Of a stretch of 64,000 nucleotides of DNA, positions 6,204-21,149 are shown piece by piece. Under the pieces are notes generated by a model. The model searched no databases. It was not told the origin of the DNA and worked only from the letters and a program-made list of their open reading frames with translations. A program made the position numbers and the translations under genes. Origin of the DNA: Desulfosoma sp. (GTDB lineage Bacteria; Desulfobacterota; Syntrophobacteria; Syntrophobacterales; DSM-9756); contig JBBFKY010000003.1 in the NCBI GenBank assembly GCA_037481875.1, forward strand, positions 344,428 through 408,427, in the 5' to 3' direction. How positions within the stretch are numbered: position 1 is the first letter of the stretch; every line of letters begins with the position of its first letter.

Positions 6204-6848
6204 TTAGCTACAGACTCTAGCGAAGCCCAGGTCAAAGGCCTTTTGGTTGATATCGTACAGTTTGGGCGAAAAGAGCCGATGAAGGCAAGCGTCCCACGCT
6301 TCCTTGGCAATAGGAAGCACCTGCATGGCCGCTACGGCTCCCATGACCACCATGTTGGCCGCCTTGACGGAACCGGCTTCACGGGCCAATGCTTCTGCAT
6401 CCAGCGTGACAATCTTTGCCAATTTTTCCTTAAGGTACTTGACGGCATCCCCGATATCGGGATAACGCCCCTGTCCGGCCGCCACCGTAAAAGGCACGAT
6501 GGGTGATATGCTGACCACGGCAGAGGTTTTGGGATGGCACCGATTGAGAGCCCGCAGAGCTTCCAAGGGTTCAAAGGCTACCAGCACGTCGGCCTGGCCC
6601 TCTCCCACAATGGGGGCTTGAATGTCTCCGACCACGACGGAAGATTCCACCACACCGCCCCGTTGGGCCATACCGTGGATTTCACTCATGCTCGCATGAA
6701 GTCCCGCGGCCAAAGCCACCTCTCCCACCAATCGCGTGGCCAAAAGGGTTCCTTGCCCTCCCACCCCTGTAAAGAAAAGGCGCAGACCATGAAAGCGCCC
6801 ATTTTTTTCTGTCGTCACCGTTTCATCCTCCTGTGCAGCCTTATCCAT
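6204..6848 (-). CDS. iorB: Indolepyruvate:ferredoxin oxidoreductase, beta subunit
   Basis: 214 residues, matching the pyruvate/ketoisovalerate oxidoreductase gamma-type domain of IorB. It opens with FTGVGGQGTLLATRLVGEVA (nucleotide-fold glycine motif) and continues with SEIHGMAQRGGVVESSV, the hallmark of this family. With IorA it interconverts arylpyruvates plus CoA and aryl-acetyl-CoA plus CO2 with ferredoxin. AAAAGG lies 8 bases before the ATG. It is the last gene of the liv-paaK-iorAB operon, 64 bases after iorA. Confidence 0.93.
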   Translation of the reverse strand: MDKAAQEDETVTTEKNGRFHGLRLFFTGVGGQGTLLATRLVGEVALAAGLHASMSEIHGMAQRGGVVESSVVVGDIQAPIVGEGQADVLVAFEPLEALRALNRCHPKTSAVVSISPIVPFTVAAGQGRYPDIGDAVKYLKEKLAKIVTLDAEALAREAGSVKAANMVVMGAVAAMQVLPIAKEAWDACLHRLFSPKLYDINQKAFDLGFARVCS

Positions 6849-6912: not shown

Positions 6913-8772
6913 TCAGGCCTCGATTTTCTTCGGTTTGATGGCGTCACACAATTGAGCGCACACGGAACAGCCTCCACACAGAACTTCATTGATGCGAACA
7001 CAGGCTTCGCCGCCTCGATCTTGAGTCCACACAAAGGCGGTACAGCCAAGCTGCGCCAGATCTTCTCGGCATGGACGACAATCGCCTGTAACCTGGAACA
7101 CGACTTTTTGTTTCGTGCCAAGGATTCGACGCTCATAAAGCGGGCAGGGGGATCGGCTGATGAGGACGGAAACCCCACCCTCTTTCATGCCGGTTTTCAT
7201 TTCCTGCAGAACCTGCTGGGTCTTTTTTACTTGCAAGGGGTTGACCACAGCCAATTTTTTCACGCCGCATCCGCGCACCAAGGTTTCCAGATCCACCTTG
7301 GCTTGTCCTTTGCCTTCCTTGGTGAGCCACACACCGGGATGAGGCTGGTGGCCCGTCATGGCTGTGGTGCCGTTATCGAGAATCACCAAAAGGAGGTTTC
7401 TTTCATGGTTCACGGCGTTGATAAGCCCCGTGATACCGCTGTGAAAGAAGGTGGAATCCCCGATAAAAGCCACGACCGGTCGATCCAACACGCGGCTGAA
7501 ACCTCCGGCCGTGGAAATGCTGGATCCCATGCAGATCAAGAAATCGGCCATCTGCAAAGGAGGTAAAAGCCCCAGGGTGTAGCAGCCGATATCCGTCGGA
7601 TAGACGGCTTCATCGCCGAAGACCTTTTTGACACTAAAGAAAGTGGCCCGATGAGGACATCCCGGACATAGGTTGGGAGGACGAGCCGGTAGATCCTGGG
7701 GCACGGCCAAAGGCTCAGGATCCTGAAACGCAACCCCGAAAAACCTACTGACAGCCTTCTTCACCAGCACCGTGTCCAACTCAAAAGCCCTGGGCACAAA
7801 CTCTTTTCCGGCAATCTTTCCGCGAAATCCACATTTTTGAGCAATCCCCCGCACGGATTCTTCTAGGAACGGCTCCAGTTCCTCCACCACCAGCACGGTT
7901 TCGAGGCCGCTCAAAAATTCTGCAACAAGCCTTTCGGGAAAAGGGTGCGTCATGCCGAGCTTTAGAAAACGGACGCGCTCCTTGATCCCCAGTTCCCGCA
8001 CGGCGTCTTGAACGTAGAGTGCCGAAACACCACTGGAGATGATGCCCCAAGGCCCGGTGCCTTCCACGGTGTTAAAGGGGCTTGTTTCCGACGTTTCTTT
8101 GAGCTGGGCATGTTTTTCCAAAAGCTTAAGGTGCAGCTTTCGCCCGACCATGGGGACCACGACCAGATTGAATGGATCCTTGGTAAAGGTGCCTTTCGAT
8201 TTTCCAGGAAAAATGTCTCCCAGGGTGACGGGGCCTCGGCAGTGGTTGACTCGAGTCGTGGTTCGCAGCAAGACGGGAAGTCCGTACTTTTCAGACAAGG
8301 CGTAACCGGTCACCACCATGTCCTTGGCCTCCTGGGGTGTGGCCGGTTCCAACATGGGCACCCCGGCCATCTTAGCAAAATACCGGTTATCCTGTTCGTT
8401 CTGGCTGGAATGAAGGGAAGGGTCGTCGGCCGAGACAATGACCATACCTGCCTTAACGCCCACATAGGCCAAAGTCATGAAAGCATCGGAAGCCACGTTG
8501 AGCCCTACATGCTTCATGGACACCAGACTGCGCACGCCGCATTGAGCCGCAGCACAAGCGGATTCCACAGACACCTTTTCGTTCACCGAATATTCCACTT
8601 CTGTTTCGATTTCAGGACCCAAGGCGGCGAAGCCGTCGATGATTTCCGAAGACGGCGTTCCAGGATAAGCAGCGACAAAGCCCACTCCGGCTTCAACGGC
8701 TCCGCGAATGATAGCTTCATTGCCTAAAAGGAATTTCTTTTCACCTCGAGTCCCGATCAGCAGGTCATGCAT
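6913..8772 (-). CDS. iorA: Indolepyruvate:ferredoxin oxidoreductase, alpha subunit
   Basis: 619 residues, full length for IorA. An N-terminal pyrimidine-binding domain (GNEAIIRGAVEAGVGFVAAYPGTPSSEI) is followed by the C-terminal half of the pyruvate oxidoreductase fold. A TPP-binding domain with GDSTFFHSGITGLINAVNH comes next, then a Cys-rich tail with CPGCPHR earlier and CRPC...C and CGGCSVCAQLC at the end for Fe-S clusters. The tail is shortened after the last Cys and the usual CPAF appears as CTAF. The enzyme oxidatively decarboxylates indole-, phenyl- and hydroxyphenylpyruvate to aryl-acetyl-CoA, or runs in reverse with reduced ferredoxin. A strong GGAGGAGG ribosome site precedes the ATG. 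It is 17 bases downstream of paaK. Confidence 0.95.
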   Translation of the reverse strand: MHDLLIGTRGEKKFLLGNEAIIRGAVEAGVGFVAAYPGTPSSEIIDGFAALGPEIETEVEYSVNEKVSVESACAAAQCGVRSLVSMKHVGLNVASDAFMTLAYVGVKAGMVIVSADDPSLHSSQNEQDNRYFAKMAGVPMLEPATPQEAKDMVVTGYALSEKYGLPVLLRTTTRVNHCRGPVTLGDIFPGKSKGTFTKDPFNLVVVPMVGRKLHLKLLEKHAQLKETSETSPFNTVEGTGPWGIISSGVSALYVQDAVRELGIKERVRFLKLGMTHPFPERLVAEFLSGLETVLVVEELEPFLEESVRGIAQKCGFRGKIAGKEFVPRAFELDTVLVKKAVSRFFGVAFQDPEPLAVPQDLPARPPNLCPGCPHRATFFSVKKVFGDEAVYPTDIGCYTLGLLPPLQMADFLICMGSSISTAGGFSRVLDRPVVAFIGDSTFFHSGITGLINAVNHERNLLLVILDNGTTAMTGHQPHPGVWLTKEGKGQAKVDLETLVRGCGVKKLAVVNPLQVKKTQQVLQEMKTGMKEGGVSVLISRSPCPLYERRILGTKQKVVFQVTGDCRPCREDLAQLGCTAFVWTQDRGGEACVRINEVLCGGCSVCAQLCDAIKPKKIEA

Positions 8773-8789: not shown

Positions 8790-10115
8790 TTACGTCGTCG
8801 TGCGTCGATAATCCACAAAGGGTTTCACTTTCCCATGTTCCCGCACCAGAGAACCTCGCTCCACCAATTTGATCCGTGGAACCAAGCCGATAAAGTTGGC
8901 CACCTTTTGGCGCATTTCGTCCACTAAAGTTCGTTGCTCCCTCATCTTGTCAAAAAACAGTTGTTCCGTAACCTCTATCCATATTTCCAGCTGATCCATA
9001 TGGCCCTGGCGTGTCACCACCACCTGATAAGGAGGCCTTGCCCCTTTGACCTGTTCCAAGACATCCCCAATACGCTCAGGAATGATGTTGATGCCCTTGA
9101 TGACCACCACGTCGTCGCAGCGGCCTTCAATGCGGGAAATTCTTCGAAACGTCCTTCCACAAGGGCACGGCTCTGGAAGAAGTCGGCACAGGTCCCCCGT
9201 GCGGTAACGTATCACCGGAAAGGCCTCTTTGGTCAGTGTCGTGATGACCAGTTCCCCCATTTGCTCAGGCTCACAGGGCTCTCCCGTCACAGGATCCACA
9301 ATTTCCACGAGAAAGTGGTCCTCTTGGACGTGCATGCCGTTTTGTTCAAGGCATTCTCCGGCAACCCCGGGTCCCATGACTTCACTGATGCCGTAATTGT
9401 CCGTGGCGGTAACAAAAAGTCTTTCCTGAATCTCTCGGCGCATCTCCTCCGTCCATGGTTCTCCGGCACACACGGCACGCCTTAGGCTTAACCTCTTGGG
9501 ATCCACTCCCAGTTTTTCCATGGTGTCTGCAATGATCAAAGCGTAGGAAGGCGTGCAGACCAAGGCTGTGGTGCGAAAATCCTGCATGATCTTGATCTGG
9601 CGTTCGGTTCGCCCTACCGATGTGGGAAGCACCGAGGCTCCCAATCGCTCCGCCCCATAATGAATGCCTAAACCTCCCGTAAGCAATCCATAGGCAAAGG
9701 TCACCTGAATGACATCATCATGCGTCAGTCCCGCCGAAGCCAGGATTCTGGCCACCAGCTGCGCCCAATTCTTGAGGTCCCGCTTGGTGTAGCCTACGAC
9801 CCGAGGGTTGACGGATGTTCCCGAAGACGAATGCACTCGAACAACTTCTCGAAGAGGAACGGCAAACATTTCGTAAGGGTAGCTGTTGCTCACGTCGTCT
9901 CGAGTGGTGAAGGGAAGCCTTCTGAGATCCTCCAAGTCCCCTAAGTCATTTTCAGGCACAAAGCCGATGTCCCGAAACATTCTTCGATAAAAGGCCACAT
10001 TGCGATCGACCCGGTTCAAAGTGGCCTGAAGCCGCTCCAGTTGCAACTGACGCAGCTCCTCCAGGTCTAGGCACTCCTTTTCCGGTTCCCAAATTGAAAC
10101 CGTATCCGGTGTCAT
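8790..10115 (-). CDS. paaK: Phenylacetate-CoA ligase family (aryl-acid:CoA ligase)
   Basis: 441 residues from the ATG at 10115, chosen because GAGGGG precedes it closely; an in-frame ATG lies 24 bases upstream. It is an adenylate-forming enzyme of the PaaK type. Visible motifs are the phosphate loop HSSSGTSVNPRVVGYT, the YGLLTGGLGIHYGAERLGA helix region, CAGEPWTEEMRREI, DNYGISEVMGPGVAGEC and YRTGDLCRLLPEPCPCGR, with a C-terminal lid domain. It makes aryl-acetyl-CoA from aryl acid, ATP and CoA. Placed directly before iorAB, it supplies the thioester that IorAB can reductively carboxylate, or hydrolyses/couples the product in the other direction. There is no paaABCDE oxygenase nearby, as expected for an anaerobe. 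Confidence 0.92.
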   Translation of the reverse strand: MTPDTVSIWEPEKECLDLEELRQLQLERLQATLNRVDRNVAFYRRMFRDIGFVPENDLGDLEDLRRLPFTTRDDVSNSYPYEMFAVPLREVVRVHSSSGTSVNPRVVGYTKRDLKNWAQLVARILASAGLTHDDVIQVTFAYGLLTGGLGIHYGAERLGASVLPTSVGRTERQIKIMQDFRTTALVCTPSYALIIADTMEKLGVDPKRLSLRRAVCAGEPWTEEMRREIQERLFVTATDNYGISEVMGPGVAGECLEQNGMHVQEDHFLVEIVDPVTGEPCEPEQMGELVITTLTKEAFPVIRYRTGDLCRLLPEPCPCGRTFRRISRIEGRCDDVVVIKGINIIPERIGDVLEQVKGARPPYQVVVTRQGHMDQLEIWIEVTEQLFFDKMREQRTLVDEMRQKVANFIGLVPRIKLVERGSLVREHGKVKPFVDYRRTTT

Positions 10116-10337
10116 GGCTGTCCCCTCAAACGGACCCATTGCATTTTTTTATATTCTGAAAACTCCATTGCGCACGCTTCAAAGACTATAGGACCAGGTG
10201 ACAGGCTCGTGAAGCATCCCCGTAGAGCTCGGGCCTTTTAAAGCCAGGCGGACGCTATGGTCTACTCTTTTCAAAAAAATCGGTGCGATAGCAGTATTCC
10301 TTCACACCCTTGAACCATCAATCCTTGAAAAGCCTTT

Positions 10338-11069
10338 TTAGGCATCCCAAATCTCTTTGGCCCCTTTGCCCAAATAAGCCCTTTGGACTTCACGATGGGC
10401 CAAAAGGTCCCGGCCGTCGCCTTGTAAGACGATTTTTCCGGTTTCCAGAACATAGCCTCGATCTGCAATCTGAAGGGCAGCACGAGCGTTTTGTTCAATG
10501 AGCAAAATGGTCCGTCCTTCTTTTCGCAGTTCCAGAATAATGTCGAAGATTTCCCGGACAATCAAGGGGGCCAATCCCATGGAGGGTTCATCCAAAAGAA
10601 GAAACCGAGGCCGTGCCATTAAAGCTCGGCAAATGGCAAGCATTTGTTGTTCTCCACCGCTCAAGGTTCCTGCCAACTGATGCCGCCTTTGCCTTAAGAC
10701 AGGAAATCTGTCCAGAAGCCGATCCATGTCCCGGCGCATGCCATAGCGATCTCTTCGGTGAACAAAAGCGCCCATTTCCAGGTTGGCTTCCACGGATAGG
10801 GTGGCAAAAATCTGTCTCCCTTCAGGAACAAGAGAAACACCCTTGTGCACCACATCTTCAGGAGCCAATTGCGTTAGGTCCGTGTCTTCAAAAAGCACGA
10901 CGCCTTTGGTGGGTTTAAGAAGCCCACAGATGCAATGAACCAAGGTCGTCTTTCCGGCACCGTTGGCGCCGATCAGGGCCACAATTTCACCGGAGCGCAC
11001 ATGAAGGGAGACCCCCTTAAGGGCATGAATATTCCCGTAGTAGGCGTGCAGACTTTTGACCGTCAGCAC
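10338..11069 (-). CDS. livF: Branched-chain/aromatic amino-acid-type ABC transporter ATPase (LivF)
   Basis: 243 residues with the LivF hallmarks: Walker A GANGAGKTT, VPEGRQIFATLSVEANL (Q-loop region), LSGGEQQMLAICRALMARPRFLLLDEP (signature and Walker B) and the switch region IEQNARAAL. It powers import together with LivG on the inner face of the membrane. The gene is followed by a 222-base stretch (10116-10337) before paaK in which I see no gene; the operon may have an internal processing or promoter site there. The substrate class is uncertain because Liv-type importers also carry aromatic acids and amides. Confidence 0.92.
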   Translation of the reverse strand: MLTVKSLHAYYGNIHALKGVSLHVRSGEIVALIGANGAGKTTLVHCICGLLKPTKGVVLFEDTDLTQLAPEDVVHKGVSLVPEGRQIFATLSVEANLEMGAFVHRRDRYGMRRDMDRLLDRFPVLRQRRHQLAGTLSGGEQQMLAICRALMARPRFLLLDEPSMGLAPLIVREIFDIILELRKEGRTILLIEQNARAALQIADRGYVLETGKIVLQGDGRDLLAHREVQRAYLGKGAKEIWDA

Positions 11070-11147: not shown

Positions 11148-12008
11148 TCAAGCCCTTGTTTTTCGTGGTTCATCGTTGTCCGCAGACGATCTTTTTTGGA
11201 GTCCACTGTTCCCGTTTCCCCACTCTTCTCCTAAGTACGCTTGAATGACGTTTGGGTTGTCCTTAATTTCCCGTGGAGGTCCGGAGGCCAGCACTTGGCC
11301 GAAATGGAGCACCAAAACCCGGTCTGAAATATCCATCACCAGATTCATGTCATGTTCCACGAGAACCACCGTGATCCCTTTTTGCTGAATCCTTCGAAGC
11401 AATTCTCCAAGTTCTTCCGTCTCCCGCGTATTCAATCCCCCCGCGGGTTCGTCCAGTAGAAGCAGAATGGGATCCGTCGCCAGGGCTCGAGCGATCTCCA
11501 AAATCTTTTGCTTCCCCAAAGGCAGGGCTCCCGCAGGCAAATCACGAGCCTCCTGAAGTCCTGCGAAAACCAACCAGGCTTCGGCCTCTTCACGAATTCT
11601 GGCCTCTTCACGGCGCATGGACGGCAGCCGAAATCCTGCGGCCCAAAACCCTGAACGGGTCCGGGCATGGCGCCCGACCATTACATTCTCCCACACGCTC
11701 ATGTGCGAAAACAAAGCAACATGCTGAAAGGTGCGGGACAAACCTCGTCGTGCAATTTCGTGGGGACGCTTTCCTTCAACAGGCTCCCCTTGAAAAAGCA
11801 CGGTGCCGGAAGACGGTTTGAGCAGACCGCTGATGCAATTGAGCAGTGTGGTTTTGCCTGCTCCATTGGGTCCGATAATCGATTGAATGATGCCTCGAGG
11901 GATTTGAGTGGTCACGCCCTTAAGGGCCACAACGCCCCCGAAGTGCATATGCACCTCATGGAGTTCTAAAATGGGTGCGGTCGATGATGATAAGGATCCT
12001 TCGCCCAT
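11148..12008 (-). CDS. livG: Liv-type ABC transporter ATPase (LivG)
   Basis: 286 residues, LivG type: Walker A GPNGAGKTTLLNC, GLSRTFQHVALFSHMSVWENVMVG, the degenerate signature LPLGKQKILEIARAL, Walker B LLLLDEPAGGLN, and VEHDMNLVMDISDRV. Compared with LivF it carries the longer insertion between Walker A and the signature that is typical of LivG. A ~25-residue low-complexity tail (GNSGLQKRSSADNDEPRKTR) extends beyond the usual end. It starts 3 bases after livM. Confidence 0.92.
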   Translation of the reverse strand: MGEGSLSSSTAPILELHEVHMHFGGVVALKGVTTQIPRGIIQSIIGPNGAGKTTLLNCISGLLKPSSGTVLFQGEPVEGKRPHEIARRGLSRTFQHVALFSHMSVWENVMVGRHARTRSGFWAAGFRLPSMRREEARIREEAEAWLVFAGLQEARDLPAGALPLGKQKILEIARALATDPILLLLDEPAGGLNTRETEELGELLRRIQQKGITVVLVEHDMNLVMDISDRVLVLHFGQVLASGPPREIKDNPNVIQAYLGEEWGNGNSGLQKRSSADNDEPRKTRA

Positions 12009-12011
12009 GGG

Positions 12012-12995
12012 TCATGAGCCGCCATCTGAGTGAGTTTCACGCAGGCCACGTCTTCGTCCAACCATGCCTTGAAGCCAGACCACCAACCCTTGCGGAACGA
12101 ACAGGGCCACAATCAAAAGAATGCCGCCGTAGACAAGGATTTCAAAGTCGGCGAAAACCTGAAGCCATTCGTTCCCCACGAACGTCAACAGCACGGTCCC
12201 CACCAAGGCGCCCCACAGACTCTGCATTCCACCGACCACCACCATGAGCACAAACCGAATGGACCACATCAAATCAAAAGATCCCGGTGAAAGAAAGGAA
12301 ACGTAGTGGGCATAAAGACTTCCGGCAATGGACGCTGTAACGGCGCTGTACATAAACACTTGCACCTTGAGGGTCGCCACGGGAACCCCCATGGCTTCTG
12401 CTGCCTTTTCGTCATCGTGAATGGCGCGCAGAGCTCTGCCCACACGAGAATGAAGCACATGGCGTGAAAACAGAAAAACGAGGAGAACCATGCCCCAAAC
12501 CAGGTAAAACCAGGCCATATCCCCCGTAAGTTTTCGACCTGCGACAGAAAGTCCGGGAATACCTCCCAACCCCGAAGGTCCTCCGGTCCAATCCACTTCT
12601 TCGTTCATGATAATGTGGACAATGACCCCAAAACCCAAGGTGGCCATGGCCAGGTAATGCCCTTTAAGGCGTAAAGCCGGCTTTCCCACAAGCCAAGCGA
12701 TAGCGACGGCAACTAAGGCTCCGGCTGCCAAGGCGGCCCAAGGATTCCAATGAAAATGCACTGTGAAAATTCCCGAACCGTAGGCGCCGATACCGAAAAA
12801 GGCGGCTTGAGCCAAAGAGATTTGTCCGGCAAATCCCATGAGAAGACTCAAACCAAGCGTCACAAGGCTAAAGATGCCGGCGAAAATCATGACGTCCGTG
12901 TAATGGGAAAAAGAGCGAGAAATCCCGGCGAGCCACGGGAATACGGCGAGAAGAATGGTCAGGGCACCAAAGGCGGTCTTTTCCCGAAGAGACAT
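12012..12995 (-). CDS. livM: Liv-type ABC transporter permease (LivM)
   Basis: 327 residues, polytopic, with the LivM landmarks GFAGQISLAQAAFFGIGAYG, the RLKGHYLAMATLGFGVIVHI stretch and the cytoplasmic coupling loop VGRALRAIHDDEKAAEAMGV. It forms the membrane channel with LivH. It follows livH with a gap of 5 bases and precedes livG by 3, so the permease and ATPase genes are tightly coupled. About eight to nine hydrophobic segments are visible. Confidence 0.92.
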   Translation of the reverse strand: MSLREKTAFGALTILLAVFPWLAGISRSFSHYTDVMIFAGIFSLVTLGLSLLMGFAGQISLAQAAFFGIGAYGSGIFTVHFHWNPWAALAAGALVAVAIAWLVGKPALRLKGHYLAMATLGFGVIVHIIMNEEVDWTGGPSGLGGIPGLSVAGRKLTGDMAWFYLVWGMVLLVFLFSRHVLHSRVGRALRAIHDDEKAAEAMGVPVATLKVQVFMYSAVTASIAGSLYAHYVSFLSPGSFDLMWSIRFVLMVVVGGMQSLWGALVGTVLLTFVGNEWLQVFADFEILVYGGILLIVALFVPQGLVVWLQGMVGRRRGLRETHSDGGS

Positions 12996-13000
12996 GGCGC

Positions 13001-13903
13001 CTAAAACCTCTTCAGCCCGGCGGCCTCTTTGCTTCCAAACAGGCCTTCCGGCTTAAAGAACAGCGCCAACATGAGCAACACAAGGGCCACGGCGTCCTTG
13101 TAACCGGAGGAGAGATAACCGGCGCAAAAGGATTCCGACAATCCTAAGAGCAGGCCGGCTACCAAAGCCCCGGAGAACTGCCCGAGTCCTCCGAGGACAG
13201 CGGCGCCAAAACCCTTGAGCCCAAGCAAAGCGCCACGATCATATTCCATAAGGGTGATAGGACAGATGGCAGCCCCGGCCACAGCCCCTACGGTGGCGCT
13301 CAAAACAAAGGACAGCATCACCATGGTGCGCACGGGAATTCCGACAAGTCTCGCGGCATTGGGATTGTCGGCACAAGCCAGCATGGCTTTGCCGTAAAAA
13401 GATTTACGAAAAAAGACGGTTAAGATACCCACAACCAAAGCACTGATTCCCAATACCCAGAGAGCTTGAGGTTGCACGGCCACACCGTGCCAGAGAAAAG
13501 CTCCGGTGCCGCTGAAAGCCGGAAGTCTGTGAGGATCCTTGCCCCAGGCCAGCATGGCCCCACCTTTCAGCAGAATGGAAAAGGCGATGGTGACAATGAT
13601 CATGGAAAGAACCGTGGCGTGGCGAGCTCGCCGTATCACGTATCGTTCCAAAAACAACCCCACAACTCCCACCGTGAGTACCGCGCTGAACACCGCGGGC
13701 GCCAAAGGCAAACCGCACGTCTGATGATAAAAAACCCCAAACAACCCCCCAAGCATCACAAATTCACCTTGGGCAAAATTGATGATTTCAGTGACGTTGT
13801 AAATGATGTTGTATCCGATGGCCACCAGGGCATAGATGGCACCAATGGTTATGCCACCCAGTGCGTACTGAAGCCATGCCGCTCCGTAAAAAAAGTCGCC
13901 CAT
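13001..13903 (-). CDS. livH: Liv-type ABC transporter permease (LivH)
   Basis: 300 residues from the ATG at 13903, preferred over an upstream in-frame start because the family begins with a short amphipathic segment (MGDFFYGAAWLQYALGGITIG). Landmarks: ALVAIGYNIIYNVTEIINFAQGEFVMLGG, the coupling loop YGKAMLACADNPNAARLVGI and GLKGFGAAVLGGLGQFSGALVAG. Polytopic inner-membrane protein. The gene lies 93 bases downstream of the binding-protein gene. Confidence 0.92.
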   Translation of the reverse strand: MGDFFYGAAWLQYALGGITIGAIYALVAIGYNIIYNVTEIINFAQGEFVMLGGLFGVFYHQTCGLPLAPAVFSAVLTVGVVGLFLERYVIRRARHATVLSMIIVTIAFSILLKGGAMLAWGKDPHRLPAFSGTGAFLWHGVAVQPQALWVLGISALVVGILTVFFRKSFYGKAMLACADNPNAARLVGIPVRTMVMLSFVLSATVGAVAGAAICPITLMEYDRGALLGLKGFGAAVLGGLGQFSGALVAGLLLGLSESFCAGYLSSGYKDAVALVLLMLALFFKPEGLFGSKEAAGLKRF

Positions 13904-13996
13904 GAAGACGCCCTTAGCTCGGTTTTTCCTCAAAAAAGCCGGCGTGCTCGTCACCGCATGTGTCGGCACGCCGGCTTGAAAGCTTGCCCCTGCTTT

Positions 13997-15178
13997 TTAC
14001 CAGGGAGCCAAAGCCCAATCGCCGTTTTTCACTACAACCATTTCCAGGTCATCTTTACTTAAGCCATTGTGATCCTGAGGCGAGAAATTAAAAATACCGT
14101 GCTGGCCCACAAAACCTTGAGTGTTTTCCAAAAAGTCGCGAATCTTTGCCGGATCCGGCCCCACGGCTTTCAAAGCGGCGACGGCCAAGTGCAGGGCATC
14201 CCAGGCATGACCACCGAAGGAAGAAACCGGCTCGTTATATTTCTTTTCGTACGCTTCCGTGTAGGCCATGATGACCTTCTTTTGCGGGTGCGTGTCCGGA
14301 AGCAGCGGGCCGACATTCACCCGAGCCAGCGGCAGCAGGACACCTTCCGCGGCATTTCCTGCCAATTCCAGATTCTTGCGGCTGCCGAAGCCGTGGCTTT
14401 GATACAAAGGAATGTTTTCCATTCTCAAGTCCCGCCACCCTTTGACGGCCAGCACCTGGGTCGGTCCCACAGACCAGTTCACAATGGCTTCCACCTTGGC
14501 TTCACGCATTTTGGTCAATTGGGCCGTCAAATCCGTATCTTTGGGGCCGTACCGTTCGTCGGCGAGCACCGTGATGCCATATTCGGGGGCAAGACGCAAG
14601 AGTTCCTCTCGGCCGCTGGCTCCAAAGCCCGTGGAAGCGGTCATGATACCGATCTTGGAAATGCCTTTAGCTTTCATGTAATCGTACATTTTTCCCACCA
14701 CGTGCTTGTCGGATCCTGCAACCTTAAAAACCCAGCGTCGTTCGGCCACCGGCTCCACAATTTTGTAGCTGGCCGCGCAGGAGATGAGAGGCACTTGCGC
14801 CTCTTCCACGATGGGAACCACGGCCAAACTGGCGTCACTTTGGGTAGGCCCGATAATCACCGGGACCTGATCCGTTTTGATAAGCTTCTTGACCGCCAGC
14901 GCGCTCTTGGTGGCATCGCTCTCATCATCATAGATAATGAGTTCCAAAGGATGGCCGTTGATACCTCCTTGGCTGTTGATTTCGTCCCGAATCATTTCCG
15001 CCGTTTTCTTTTCCGGTTCCCCGAGAAAAGAAGCCGTTCCAGTAATGGCAAAAACGGCACCGACCTTGTAAGGTTCTTTTCCCGCATGAACCCCCTTCGG
15101 CTGCACGAGGCCGACAGCCCACCCGCACAGTACCACCACACCAAGGACACTCCACACCCAACGCTGCTTTGCCTTCAT
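13997..15178 (-). CDS. livK: Liv-type periplasmic substrate-binding protein
   Basis: 393 residues with the start at 15178, which is preceded by GGAGG and starts a clear signal peptide (MKAKQRWVWSVLGVVVLCGWAVG ... VHA-GKEPYK). The body is a type I periplasmic-binding fold (Peripla_BP_6): KVGAVFAITGTASFLGEPEKKTAEM, INSQGGINGHPLELIIYDDESD and VIIGPTQSDASLAV. The family binds branched-chain or aromatic amino acids, amides or aromatic acids; ligand specificity cannot be read directly. Because the downstream genes are paaK and iorAB, an aryl acid or aromatic amino acid is the likely ligand (inference). It is the first structural gene after the attenuator. Confidence 0.88.
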   Translation of the reverse strand: MKAKQRWVWSVLGVVVLCGWAVGLVQPKGVHAGKEPYKVGAVFAITGTASFLGEPEKKTAEMIRDEINSQGGINGHPLELIIYDDESDATKSALAVKKLIKTDQVPVIIGPTQSDASLAVVPIVEEAQVPLISCAASYKIVEPVAERRWVFKVAGSDKHVVGKMYDYMKAKGISKIGIMTASTGFGASGREELLRLAPEYGITVLADERYGPKDTDLTAQLTKMREAKVEAIVNWSVGPTQVLAVKGWRDLRMENIPLYQSHGFGSRKNLELAGNAAEGVLLPLARVNVGPLLPDTHPQKKVIMAYTEAYEKKYNEPVSSFGGHAWDALHLAVAALKAVGPDPAKIRDFLENTQGFVGQHGIFNFSPQDHNGLSKDDLEMVVVKNGDWALAPW

Positions 15179-15207: not shown

Positions 15208-15239
15208 AAAAAAGGGCCGTGGGAACATCCCACGGCCCT
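15208..15239 (-). terminator. second leader terminator (T2) of the liv-paaK-ior operon
   Basis: On the minus strand a 12-bp perfect stem, AGGGCCGTGGGA paired with TCCCACGGCCCT around a 3-nt loop, runs into a run of six Ts. It ends 29 bases before the ATG of the binding-protein gene, so it must be bypassed for the operon to be expressed. Its 5' arm (15228-15239) can alternatively pair with the 3' arm of the first terminator (15249-15259, CCCACGGC with GCCGTGGG), which would prevent T2 from folding. Confidence 0.85.
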
Positions 15240-15242
15240 AAC

Positions 15243-15287
15243 AAAAAAAGCCGTGGGCAAACCTGGATCTGCGGTCTGCCCACGGCT
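15243..15287 (-). terminator. first leader terminator (T1) of the liv-paaK-ior operon
   Basis: On the minus strand an 11-bp perfect stem, AGCCGTGGGCA (15277-15287) with TGCCCACGGCT (15249-15259) and a 17-nt loop, is followed by a run of seven Ts. It lies 20 bases downstream of the leader-peptide stop codon. The 5' arm overlaps the sequence that can pair with the end of the leader reading frame, so terminator and antiterminator are mutually exclusive. Confidence 0.88.
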
Positions 15288-15326
15288 AACTTGGCGGAGT
15301 GTCGACGTCACCGACGGGCAGACCGC
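15271..15326 (-). promoter_or_regulatory. antiterminator hairpin of the Tyr attenuator
   Basis: GCGGTCTGCCC at the 3' end of the leader reading frame (15316-15326, minus strand) is perfectly complementary over 11 bases to GGGCAGACCGC (15271-15281). The latter includes five bases of the 5' arm of terminator T1. Pairing of the two blocks T1. A ribosome stalled on the upstream Tyr codons would leave 15316-15326 free, allowing antitermination. A ribosome reaching the stop codon at 15308-15310 would cover it, allowing T1 to form. This is read from sequence complementarity only. Confidence 0.8.
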
Positions 15327-15379
15327 CTGAGGTAGCCGTAGCCGTAATAGTCATATCGCCGGGAAACCGAAAAAACCAT
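15308..15379 (-). CDS. Tyr-rich leader peptide of the liv-paaK-iorAB operon
   Basis: A 23-codon reading frame (ATG at 15379, TGA at 15308-15310) whose residues 9-16 are YDYYGYGY: five Tyr codons (TAT, TAT, TAC, TAC, TAC) in eight. It ends in a basic tail (LRRSARR). GAGGAG lies 5 bases before the ATG. An in-frame ATG 18 bases upstream (15397) could extend it to 29 codons. Its position between a promoter-like sequence and mutually exclusive antiterminator/terminator hairpins marks it as the sensing peptide of a transcription attenuator that would respond to charged tRNA-Tyr. It is not expected to have a function as a protein. Confidence 0.82.
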   Translation of the reverse strand: MVFSVSRRYDYYGYGYLRRSARR

Positions 15380-15434
15380 GATGCTCCTCTGCCTCATGAA
15401 ACCCTGCCCGTCCATCGGAACCCTTTTCGCCTCT

Positions 15435-15464
15435 CGTTTACCTGCTCCCGCGTTCCTGTGTCAA
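15435..15464 (-). promoter_or_regulatory. candidate promoter of the attenuated operon
   Basis: On the minus strand a perfect TTGACA (15459-15464) is followed after 18 bases by TAAACG (15435-15440), or after 17 by GTAAAC; the -10 match is weak. Transcription would start near 15428, giving a leader of roughly 30-50 bases before the Tyr-rich peptide. The -35 overlaps the last codons of the FKBP gene, so the operon is probably separate from it. Confidence 0.5.
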
Positions 15465-15988
15465 GCTGAAACTCTTGATCCTTGTGCACCTTTATCAGGG
15501 AAAAATTCCAAGCGCCCTCCACCGGTGCAAGACGGCCGTAATTCCCTCTTGGATGCCTCGCAGATATCCTTGATCTCGATGTCGAATTCGGCGTAGGTGC
15601 CCGCACCAGGTTTGTTGAAATCGGCCACAACCACATCATCTCGAAGTTCTCGGACCAAAAATTCCACAAGACATCGGTTGCGCATCTCTCGATAAACCCT
15701 GCCCGGCTTCAGCCGCTCGGGCTTGTAGTCGCTTCTCGGCAATTCTCGAACCAGTTCAGGGTCATAGGGACCGAAGATCTCTTCCGGAGGCACATAGACG
15801 GAGACACGGTCCCCGATTTTTTTGTTCATGATAGCCGCTTCCACCGATGGATATTGCACATCCACACCATAGACGAAGGTGCACGTTCCAGGAGGTGCTT
15901 CGGTCACTGTGCCGTCGGGGGATATGGTTTTCAGGGTGAAATCAATGGTGACTTTCATGCACGGTTTGACTTGCAGAGCTTCTTTCAT
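15461..15988 (-). CDS. SlyD-like FKBP-type peptidyl-prolyl cis-trans isomerase
   Basis: 175 residues. The N-terminal ~70 residues form an FKBP-like half-domain (MKVTIDFTLKTISPDGTVTE, FVYGVDVQYPSVEAAIMNKKIGDRVSVYVPPEEIFGPYDPELV). The Pro-x-Glu-x-x-Phe-Gly segment starts the insert-in-flap region characteristic of SlyD-type chaperone-isomerases. It lacks the long His/Cys-rich metal-binding tail of E. coli SlyD. The ATG at 15988 is preferred over one 9 bases upstream because AGGAG then has normal spacing. It probably catalyses prolyl isomerisation in protein folding. It ends where the liv operon promoter begins. Confidence 0.8.
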   Translation of the reverse strand: MKEALQVKPCMKVTIDFTLKTISPDGTVTEAPPGTCTFVYGVDVQYPSVEAAIMNKKIGDRVSVYVPPEEIFGPYDPELVRELPRSDYKPERLKPGRVYREMRNRCLVEFLVRELRDDVVVADFNKPGAGTYAEFDIEIKDICEASKRELRPSCTGGGRLEFFPDKGAQGSRVSA

Positions 15989-16568
15989 GGGCGGCATTCT
16001 CCTTTGTGAACGAACGAAAATCTTGATGATTACCCAAACTATCTAAGACTCTTCGTCATGGATGTCTAGAAGGCTTTCCGAAAACATTGTTCGGCTGCCT
16101 AGGAGTAGCGTTCGACTCACCTTTCGTAGGGATCGTGAAACGCCTCGTGATGTTCGGGAACGGTCCAGGAACCCCTCCGCAAGTCAGGAGAATTTCCGAG
16201 ATCCTTCGTAAGGGCGAATCGGTGTGTGCGCCCTATGTCCACGCTGGGCCACATGGATTTTGAAGGCCGACTCTTCAGTCTGTCCTGCAGAAGACGGCTC
16301 GAGTTCGTCCGACGGCATGAACGGACAAGGCTACTTCCCACAAAACAAAGCCGTTTTTTCTCTTGAGTTCACTTCACATGTGCTATAGGGATGCCCTCGG
16401 GTTTTTCCTTAAGGCCAAAGCGCTGCAAGCAAGATTCTAGTATGCGCCGAAAACAAAATGCACAACACGAGGACCCACCCTCGGCGCATCGTGAAAAGGT
16501 TTGCCTGCAACGGGTATGAATGAAATAAGTCTTCAAGCAGGTTTCTAACCAACGGCGGATAGAGTCCC
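15989..16568. other. 580-bp intergenic stretch with no supported gene
   Basis: This is the divergent region between the FKBP gene and pgeF. I find no convincing reading frame, RNA or repeat. A TATAGG box at about 16384, preceded by cttgag 16 bases upstream, is a weak promoter candidate for pgeF but lies almost 200 bases from its start. Confidence 0.4.
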
Positions 16569-19877: not shown

Positions 19878-19907
19878 TTGAAAGCACGTACGCGCCTATG
19901 CTATAGA
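19878..19907 (+). promoter_or_regulatory. candidate sigma-70 promoter of the second liv operon
   Basis: TTGAAA (19878-19883) and TATAGA (19902-19907) are separated by 18 bases, with a predicted start near 19914 and a ~60-base leader before the ATG at 19977. No leader peptide or terminator is visible in this leader, unlike the first liv operon. Confidence 0.5.
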
Positions 19908-19976
19908 GGCTTTCGTCTTGGATCGACTGTGATGTCCCATAAACCCCATCACTTTTCAAGCCAAGGAGGAAAAACC

Positions 19977-21149
19977 ATGTCGCGACGAAAACCCTTGATT
20001 GTTTTTTTTGCTTTCTTAGCCGTCGTAGGCTACCTGTCCATGGCGTCGGCTGCGAACACGATCAAGATCGGTTTTAACATTCCTCTCACCGGCGACATTC
20101 CCAAAGTGGGAGAAGGATCCAAGTACGCGGCCGAAATTTTTCTGGCGGAGGTGAATGGGGCCGGTGGCATCAAGGTCGGAGACAAGACCTACTTACTGCA
20201 GTTTATTTATGAGGACAACGAATCCAAAGCGGAATCGGCTACGGCTGCTGCCCTGAAGCTCATCACGCAAGACCAGGTCCTGGCCATCGTTGGACCTCAG
20301 GCCAGCAAACAAGCCATTCCCGCAGGGGAAGTGTGTAATTCTTACAAGACTCCAATGATTTCCCCATGGTCGACCAATCCTCAGACCACATTGAACCGCC
20401 CTTATGTGTTTCGAGCCTGTTTCTTGGATCCTTTTCAGGGACCGGTAGCGGCCAAGTTCGCTACTGAAGAATTTCAAGCCAAAAAAGCCGCAGTCCTTTA
20501 TGACATTGCCAGCGATTATCCCAAGGGACTCGCTGAATATTTTAAGGAAGCTTTTGAAAAGATTCACGGACCCGGTTCTGTGGTGGCTTTTGAAACCTTT
20601 ACCACCAAGGATCGCGATTTCAGTGCGCAGCTGACCAACATCATCAAATCCGGCGCCGATGTTCTCTTTACCCCTCAATACTACGACGAAGTGCCCCTGA
20701 TCGTAAAACAGGCCCATCAATTGGGATGGAAGAAACCCATCATGGGCAGTGATAGTTGGGGTTCGGCGGAACTCATGAAACTGTGCGGGGATGACTGCAA
20801 GGGGCTCTTTTTCACCACCCACTATGCGGCTGCGGGAGCTAAAGGGGCCACCAAAGAGTTTATCGACAAATACAATGCCAAATACGGGTATGTGCCGGAC
20901 GATGTGGCGGCCCTCACCTGGGATGCCATTCGGCTTCTGGTTCAAGCCATTCAAAACACGGGAGGGCTAACCGGGGATCTGGAAAAAGACCGTGATAACG
21001 TGAAGAATGCTTTGGCCCAAATCAAGGACTTTGAAGGTATCACCGGGAAAATGACTTTCACCCCTGAAGGCGATCCCATCAAGTGCGCCGTGGTGGTGAA
21101 GATCAGTGATAAGGGGGAATTTGAATTTTACAAGTCCGTATGCCCATAA
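19977..21149 (+). CDS. Liv-type periplasmic substrate-binding protein (second system)
   Basis: 390 residues starting at 19977 behind AAGGAGG. The signal peptide is MSRRKPLIVFFAFLAVVGYLSMASA-ANT. The body is a Peripla_BP_6 protein: IKIGFNIPLTGDIPKVGEGSKYAAE, VNGAGGIKVGDKTYLLQF and AIVGPQASKQAIPAGEVCNS. A disulfide could form at LCGDDCKG. It delivers a branched-chain amino acid or a related ligand to the LivHM-GF complex encoded downstream. It is separated from livH by 700 bases holding two repeats and a strong hairpin. Confidence 0.9.
   Translation: MSRRKPLIVFFAFLAVVGYLSMASAANTIKIGFNIPLTGDIPKVGEGSKYAAEIFLAEVNGAGGIKVGDKTYLLQFIYEDNESKAESATAAALKLITQDQVLAIVGPQASKQAIPAGEVCNSYKTPMISPWSTNPQTTLNRPYVFRACFLDPFQGPVAAKFATEEFQAKKAAVLYDIASDYPKGLAEYFKEAFEKIHGPGSVVAFETFTTKDRDFSAQLTNIIKSGADVLFTPQYYDEVPLIVKQAHQLGWKKPIMGSDSWGSAELMKLCGDDCKGLFFTTHYAAAGAKGATKEFIDKYNAKYGYVPDDVAALTWDAIRLLVQAIQNTGGLTGDLEKDRDNVKNALAQIKDFEGITGKMTFTPEGDPIKCAVVVKISDKGEFEFYKSVCP

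Follow-up and report, generated by a model that had tools for sequence, protein, structure and literature searches.

The window analysed here, a 64,000-nucleotide stretch of Desulfosoma sp. DNA, comes from a genome of 3.4 Mb whose LivK is 91% identical to that of an uncultured Desulfosoma, a near relative. On its minus strand, from 15178 down to 6204, lies the operon livKHMGF-paaK-iorAB, as proposed by an earlier sequence-only reading that had placed a liv-paaK-iorAB operon behind a putative tyrosine attenuator, and the order of these genes is conserved in relatives. The operon opens with livK (13997-15178), which encodes a periplasmic binding protein (PF13458), and continues with genes for the permeases LivH (13001-13969) and LivM (12012-12995) and for the ATPases LivG (11148-12008) and LivF (10338-11069), followed by a paaK-like gene for an aryl-CoA ligase (8790-10139), iorA (6913-8772), and iorB (6204-6848). 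IorA passes the NCBIfam cutoff for TIGR03336 with 737 bits. The PaaK-like protein matches TIGR02155 with 494.6 bits, under the cutoff of 646.3, and thus the exact PaaK substrate is not fixed. An apparent further Liv-type periplasmic binding protein is encoded on the plus strand at 19878-21149, outside this operon.

Upstream of the operon a consensus scan predicts, without experimental data, a minus-strand promoter at 15436-15464 (TTGACA, a spacer of 16, and GGTAAA) that was absent from the earlier description. Its -35 box (15459-15464) shares nucleotides with the stop codon of the preceding gene (15461-15997), which is FKBP-like by eye and has no Pfam match. With a promoter at this position the leader should be part of the transcript, and a TTGAC -35 box is found upstream of the leader in 35 of 41 orthologous loci, so a start above 15208, without which the earlier interpretation would fail, is possible as far as such predictions go. 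The leader peptide ORF itself spans 23 codons on the minus strand (15308-15379; MVFSVSRRYDYYGYGYLRRSARR followed by the stop codon), with an AGGAG-like site immediately 5' of its ATG, and in-frame upstream ATGs could extend it to 35 codons (15415). The putative regulatory codons within it, YDYYGYGY (15332-15355), include five Tyr, and among the 1466 short ORFs of the window this is the sole one with at least five Tyr in eight codons.

Intrinsic terminators are located between the leader ORF and livK, on the same strand. T1 (15243-15287) has a 15-bp stem and a 9-nt loop followed by TTTTTT, and T2 (15208-15239) has a 12-bp stem and a 3-nt loop followed by TTTTT, a U-tract that is kept in relatives. 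Together with the end of the ORF they supply five conserved segments: A (GCGGTCTGCCC, 15316-15326), which lies within the ORF and forms the 5' strand of the antiterminator; B (15271-15286), the 5' arm of T1, of which 15271-15281 pairs with A; C (15250-15263), the 3' arm of T1 and also the partner of D; and D (15228-15238) and E (15214-15224), the 5' and 3' arms of T2. The reading frame, its Tyr codons, the ribosome site, and both terminators, T1 with its T-run, were all found as the sequence-only reading had described them, and the 11-bp complement that it drew between 15316-15326 and 15271-15281 is exact. It had also suggested that the 3' arm of T1 can pair with the 5' arm of T2, and the isolated C-D hairpin does reach -19.4 kcal/mol, versus -24.7 for T2.

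When livK orthologs were fetched from related genomes and their upstream regions examined, 41 leaders were recovered, in families f1, f2, f3, f5, and f6 of the same class, which comprises sulfate-reducing and related anaerobic bacteria; the leader-bearing species include Desulfacinum infernum, D. hydrothermale, and Desulfoferrobacter suflitae. By our own reading of the codon clusters 35 of the 41 leaders are dominated by Tyr (YYYYGY, YYCYAY, YYRYIY, YYYYYYYY, and YYYYYCYY are examples), four are dominated by Phe (L028, L114, L116, L117), L059 is mixed, and L019 is weak, keeping one Tyr. The conservation of Tyr codons in relatives, which had been put forward as a check on the initial idea, is therefore met in most leaders. 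Counting the first 10 cluster codons, with the second copies in family f2 excluded, gives 184 Tyr, 18 Phe, and 1 Trp, and throughout the 41 leaders Tyr is written by both TAT (103) and TAC (85), indicating that it is the amino acid that is kept and not a nucleotide string. The second livK copies in family f2 have Phe leaders instead of Tyr leaders (L114, L116, L117, with FFFCFF and FCFF). A tandem livK pair at L118 (G016:C80) has a leader for each gene, MKNYYYYYYV (Tyr) for the first and MFYFYFYFFT (Phe/Tyr) for the second, and the Tyr leader of L025 (G048:C3), YYCYYY, is followed by T1 only, without T2, and by a long gap to livK. The leader accompanies livK despite a varying upstream neighbour (tRNA-Leu in three loci). 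No such leader was seen at the orthologs L036 and L046 or at the distant Desulfobacteria livK loci that were examined.

The structure was analysed in 34 non-redundant liv sequences. The antiterminator A:B, which is conserved and mutually exclusive with the terminator helix B:C, is paired at 96.7% of its positions, has four pairs altered on both sides, and has a covariation score above those of all 500 shuffles, which supplies the compensatory changes that the sequence-only reading had named as a test of this helix. Pairing amounts to 89.2% for B:C, 87.7% for C:D, and 90.5% for D:E, and covariation speaks for B:C and D:E as well. When partners were permuted among loci, the cognate combination was matched in 0 of 5000 permutations for each of A:B, B:C, and D:E and in 34 of 5000 for C:D, and for the controls A:D and B:E the cognate combination was not better than the permuted ones in this liv set. 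In the liv set few independent changes underlie the covariation of C:D, and its signal could partly stem from an inherited duplicated hairpin. A separate set of 48 other attenuators, taken from the hits of a covariance model, had not been used in model building, and the covariance model holds B:C and D:E only, with A:B and C:D left unpaired; in this set the cognate z was -11.1 for A:B and -6.1 for C:D, compared with +0.8 for the control A:D and -3.8 for the control B:E. That B:E also beats permutation here means that relatedness gives some background. A candidate segment 1 (GGACGGGCAG, 15404-15413, minus strand), a possible partner of A in the absence of a ribosome, is only weakly supported (p = 0.06 versus shuffles in the window, p < 0.05 in 7 of 34 loci, and cognate versus permuted 114/5000, with the control at 391/5000). 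On the evidence of sequence comparison, we regard the helices A:B, B:C, C:D, and D:E, the leader ORF, its Tyr codons, and the operon as established features.

The arrangement suggests a ribosome-mediated transcription attenuator that would read the supply of charged tRNA-Tyr. If Tyr is plentiful, the ribosome would reach the stop codon and cover A, B would pair with C (T1) and D with E (T2), and transcription would stop ahead of livK, at T1, at T2, or at both. If Tyr is scarce, the ribosome would stall on the Tyr codons upstream of A, and A:B would form once B has been made, leaving C free to pair with D; with both terminators blocked, livKHMGF-paaK-iorAB would be transcribed. In all 34 loci the stop codon lies at -2 to +28 nt from the 5' end of A, so that a ribosome at the stop should mask all or much of A, and with a ribosome placed there both terminators fold in 34 of 34 loci. 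When the ribosome stands at the Tyr codons, A stays largely accessible, and with such a stalled ribosome and the polymerase just past B, A:B forms in 32-33 of the 34, but in the equilibrium fold with a stalled ribosome it wins in only 10-14, and D:E is still formed in 29-30. Equilibrium folding was dropped as proof of the switch in favour of the order in which the segments are made, as the terminated form prevails in the majority of folds with a stalled ribosome, and since this form usually returns at equilibrium the switch must be kinetic and would need ordered co-transcriptional folding. Kinetic switching is accepted for the trp and his attenuators. That livKHMGF-paaK-iorAB is controlled by an attenuator seems to us close to certain on the computational evidence, with readthrough inferred, and Tyr is very likely the signal, although the response is likewise inferred, there being no expression data. 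The explanation as a whole, with its Tyr attenuator, relay, and salvage function, is one in which we place good confidence, on the understanding that stalling, kinetic trapping, the Tyr response, and the metabolic direction have been deduced from DNA alone.

The sequence-only reading had further supposed that antitermination at T1 is passed on to T2 like a relay; this remains plausible and agrees with the disappearance of the first U-tract in some relatives, but it requires co-transcriptional kinetics in a system where the terminated form usually wins at equilibrium, and we rate it as probable that the relay reaches T2. Five of the 34 liv loci have lost the U-tract after C with B:C pairing retained, and it is missing in 11 of the 48 other attenuators, while the U-tract after E is kept in 33 of 34 and 48 of 48, respectively; the U-counts after C and after E do not differ significantly in the liv set (Wilcoxon, p 0.18), and the argument draws on the clear losses only. 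Retention of B:C after the loss of its U-tract is sensible if this helix works in the relay and does not serve as a terminator alone, and the sequences thus appear to favour a relay over two independent terminators. It could still be that only T1 is under Tyr control, that T2 is a partly leaky backup, and that C:D is a by-product of hairpin duplication. C:D and D:E are almost iso-energetic (mean -16.7 versus -17.7 kcal/mol), C:D is usually no more stable than D:E in f1 and f3, D:E wins the equilibrium folds, the covariation of C:D in the liv set is modest, and L025 has T1 only, all of which would suit such a T1-only control. We nevertheless consider it unlikely, because L028, L117, L045, L047, and L048, in addition to the 11 other attenuators, have no proper first U-tract, so that only T2 can terminate there and A can reach T2 solely via B:C and C:D, and because C:D has the cognate z noted above in the 48-member set and is stronger than D:E in most f5 loci, where it also uses the first U-tract. 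A more radical objection, that the Tyr ORF arose by chance and the hairpins simply terminate, in tandem, the FKBP-like gene that precedes them, can point to the end of that gene at 15461, on the same strand and about 250 nt or less from the hairpins. It is hardly credible, given that a separate predicted promoter lies in between, that the Tyr codons and A:B pairing are conserved, and that the leader, A, and the hairpins go with livK in five families whatever the upstream neighbour; this linkage across changing neighbours led us to rule it out.

With regard to physiology, the operon probably imports arylacetic acids (or aromatic amino acids), from which the aryl-CoA ligase and reductive carboxylation by IorAB would rebuild tyrosine. 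In some archaea, aryl acid import, CoA activation, and reductive carboxylation constitute a route to aromatic amino acids, and control by Tyr starvation fits, by inference, an aryl-acid salvage route of this sort. A salvage role for livKHMGF-paaK-iorAB is moderately likely in our estimation, the anabolic direction of PaaK and IorAB being inferred. A tyrA gene is present in the genome as well, near an operon that has a Phe/Tyr leader and contains aroB, and so the liv-paaK-ior operon would supplement de novo synthesis; the twin Tyr leaders before an ADP-forming acyl-CoA ligase in G271 are a second hint of salvage. Anaerobes also employ IorAB and aryl-CoA ligases to oxidize amino acids, and some leaders contain one to three Phe codons, from which one might argue for general aromatic sensing, or for tRNA-Tyr sensing on behalf of a catabolic operon that oxidizes aromatic amino acids. 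This is doubtful, though not negligible, since starvation-induced control suits synthesis or uptake and not breakdown, and since the same genome contains paaK-livKHMGF-paaK as a parallel operon behind a Phe leader, and trpE and trpB-like genes stand behind Trp leaders, so that the sensed amino acid follows the product.

Several known systems resemble the liv leader in part. The his leader of enterobacteria alternates between the stem-loops AB/CD/EF and BC/DE, and like the liv leader it is a chain of alternative helices in which translation sets the register and an intrinsic terminator stands at the end (PMC10989985). The liv leader has two successive registers, A:B with C:D versus B:C with D:E; its topology is that of the his leader, a likeness absent from the sequence-only reading, and the relay is therefore not new in kind. 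It differs from the his leader in having Tyr instead of His codons, in the U-tract that follows the middle hairpin in most loci and creates tandem terminators, in the weak support for its first helix (1:A), and in the uptake, aryl-CoA, and IorAB genes that it would control. The E. coli trp, pheA, and pheST attenuators also use end-product codons within a short ORF and an antiterminator competing with a terminator (PMC11802643), whereas the liv leader has another amino acid, a longer helix chain, and a transporter/salvage operon. The aroR leader of Corynebacterium glutamicum aroF (Phe-Tyr-Phe) is likewise an aromatic leader with a Tyr codon, but it is reported to respond to Phe limitation and not to Tyr (PMC11802643 citing Neshat 2014), and liv leaders have up to 8 Tyr codons, often without Phe. 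The uORFC-13-1 motif upstream of Acholeplasma aroF, a candidate aromatic uORF attenuator from comparative genomics (PMC8632094), has Phe codon(s), another structure, and belongs to another phylum. The idea of helix chains, which the liv leader shares, was reportedly advanced in predictions of attenuators by Lyubetsky and co-workers in 2010 (cited in PMC4833913). Our literature search gave no demonstrated Tyr-responsive ribosome-mediated attenuator, with the caveat that its coverage was partial and a prior description is not excluded. An Rfam search of the region found no family, the best match, at 21.8 bits, falling short of the gathering score of 43. As far as searched, then, three things appear to be new: the sensing of Tyr, the terminators in tandem, and a family without an Rfam entry (the window member having been searched). 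If true, the Tyr switch would predict substrate and direction for vaguely annotated transporter, ligase, and oxidoreductase genes, and the same genome would pair a Tyr operon with a parallel Phe operon; the natural variants, with the first U-tract present or lost or with T1 only, would offer material on how helix chains relay ribosome position to a distant terminator.

In the class, 54 of the 55 genomes contain a match to the covariance model, and in a sample of 395 genomes from the phylum 175 do so at E <= 1e-5; the Tyr-rich columns of the model favour hits with Tyr or Phe codons. Among the members inspected, the sensed residues are Phe, Trp, Phe/Tyr, Leu, and Ilv, fitting the next gene: Phe leaders stand before paaK-livKHMGF-paaK, Trp leaders before trpE, trp-operon DAHP synthase, and trpB-like genes, and mixed Phe/Tyr/Trp leaders before DAHP and ADTH synthases. 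We see a little better than an even chance that one relay attenuator family governs most of the aromatic amino acid economy in the anaerobes of this phylum, from the two types of enzyme that open the shikimate pathway (DAHP and ADTH synthase) to distinct aryl-acid salvage operons for Tyr and for Phe, with the codon reporting the product of the operon and with tandem terminators giving two-step termination in many members.

The genome of the window has several such leaders besides that of livK. At L155:2470-2582 (G000:C1:555969-556081) a Phe-rich leader with FFRFGF...GGFFFRKSAHG and tandem hairpins precedes the second cluster, paaK-livKHMGF-paaK, an arrangement that recurs in L159, L160, L161, and L170. 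Trp leaders are found before a DAHP synthase-trpE-trpG-trpD operon (WWCWWW, L157:2312-2396) and before a TrpB-like gene (VWSWWW, L158:1837-1958), and a Phe/Tyr/Trp leader, GFYFYYGWY (L156:7179-7283), precedes a DAHP-synthase-like gene, tyrA, and aroB. Before the ADTH-synthase-like genes of L171, L173, L175, L181, and L184, the first hairpin is without a U-tract (TGAAAT) and one terminator is left; the L199 homologue was confirmed as TIGR01949. In G271, two Tyr leaders in succession (YYYYYYYY and YYYYYYW), both having a terminator of their own, stand before the ADP-forming acyl-CoA ligase (L203:4066-4378, G271:C106). Tandem hairpins also occur in G074 with VISLVLIVV before an ilvB-like gene (Val/Ile/Leu; L208:1569-1722) and with LLGLILG...LLLGLSL before a leuB-like gene (Leu; L209:4656-4742), both genes having been named by eye from their first residues.
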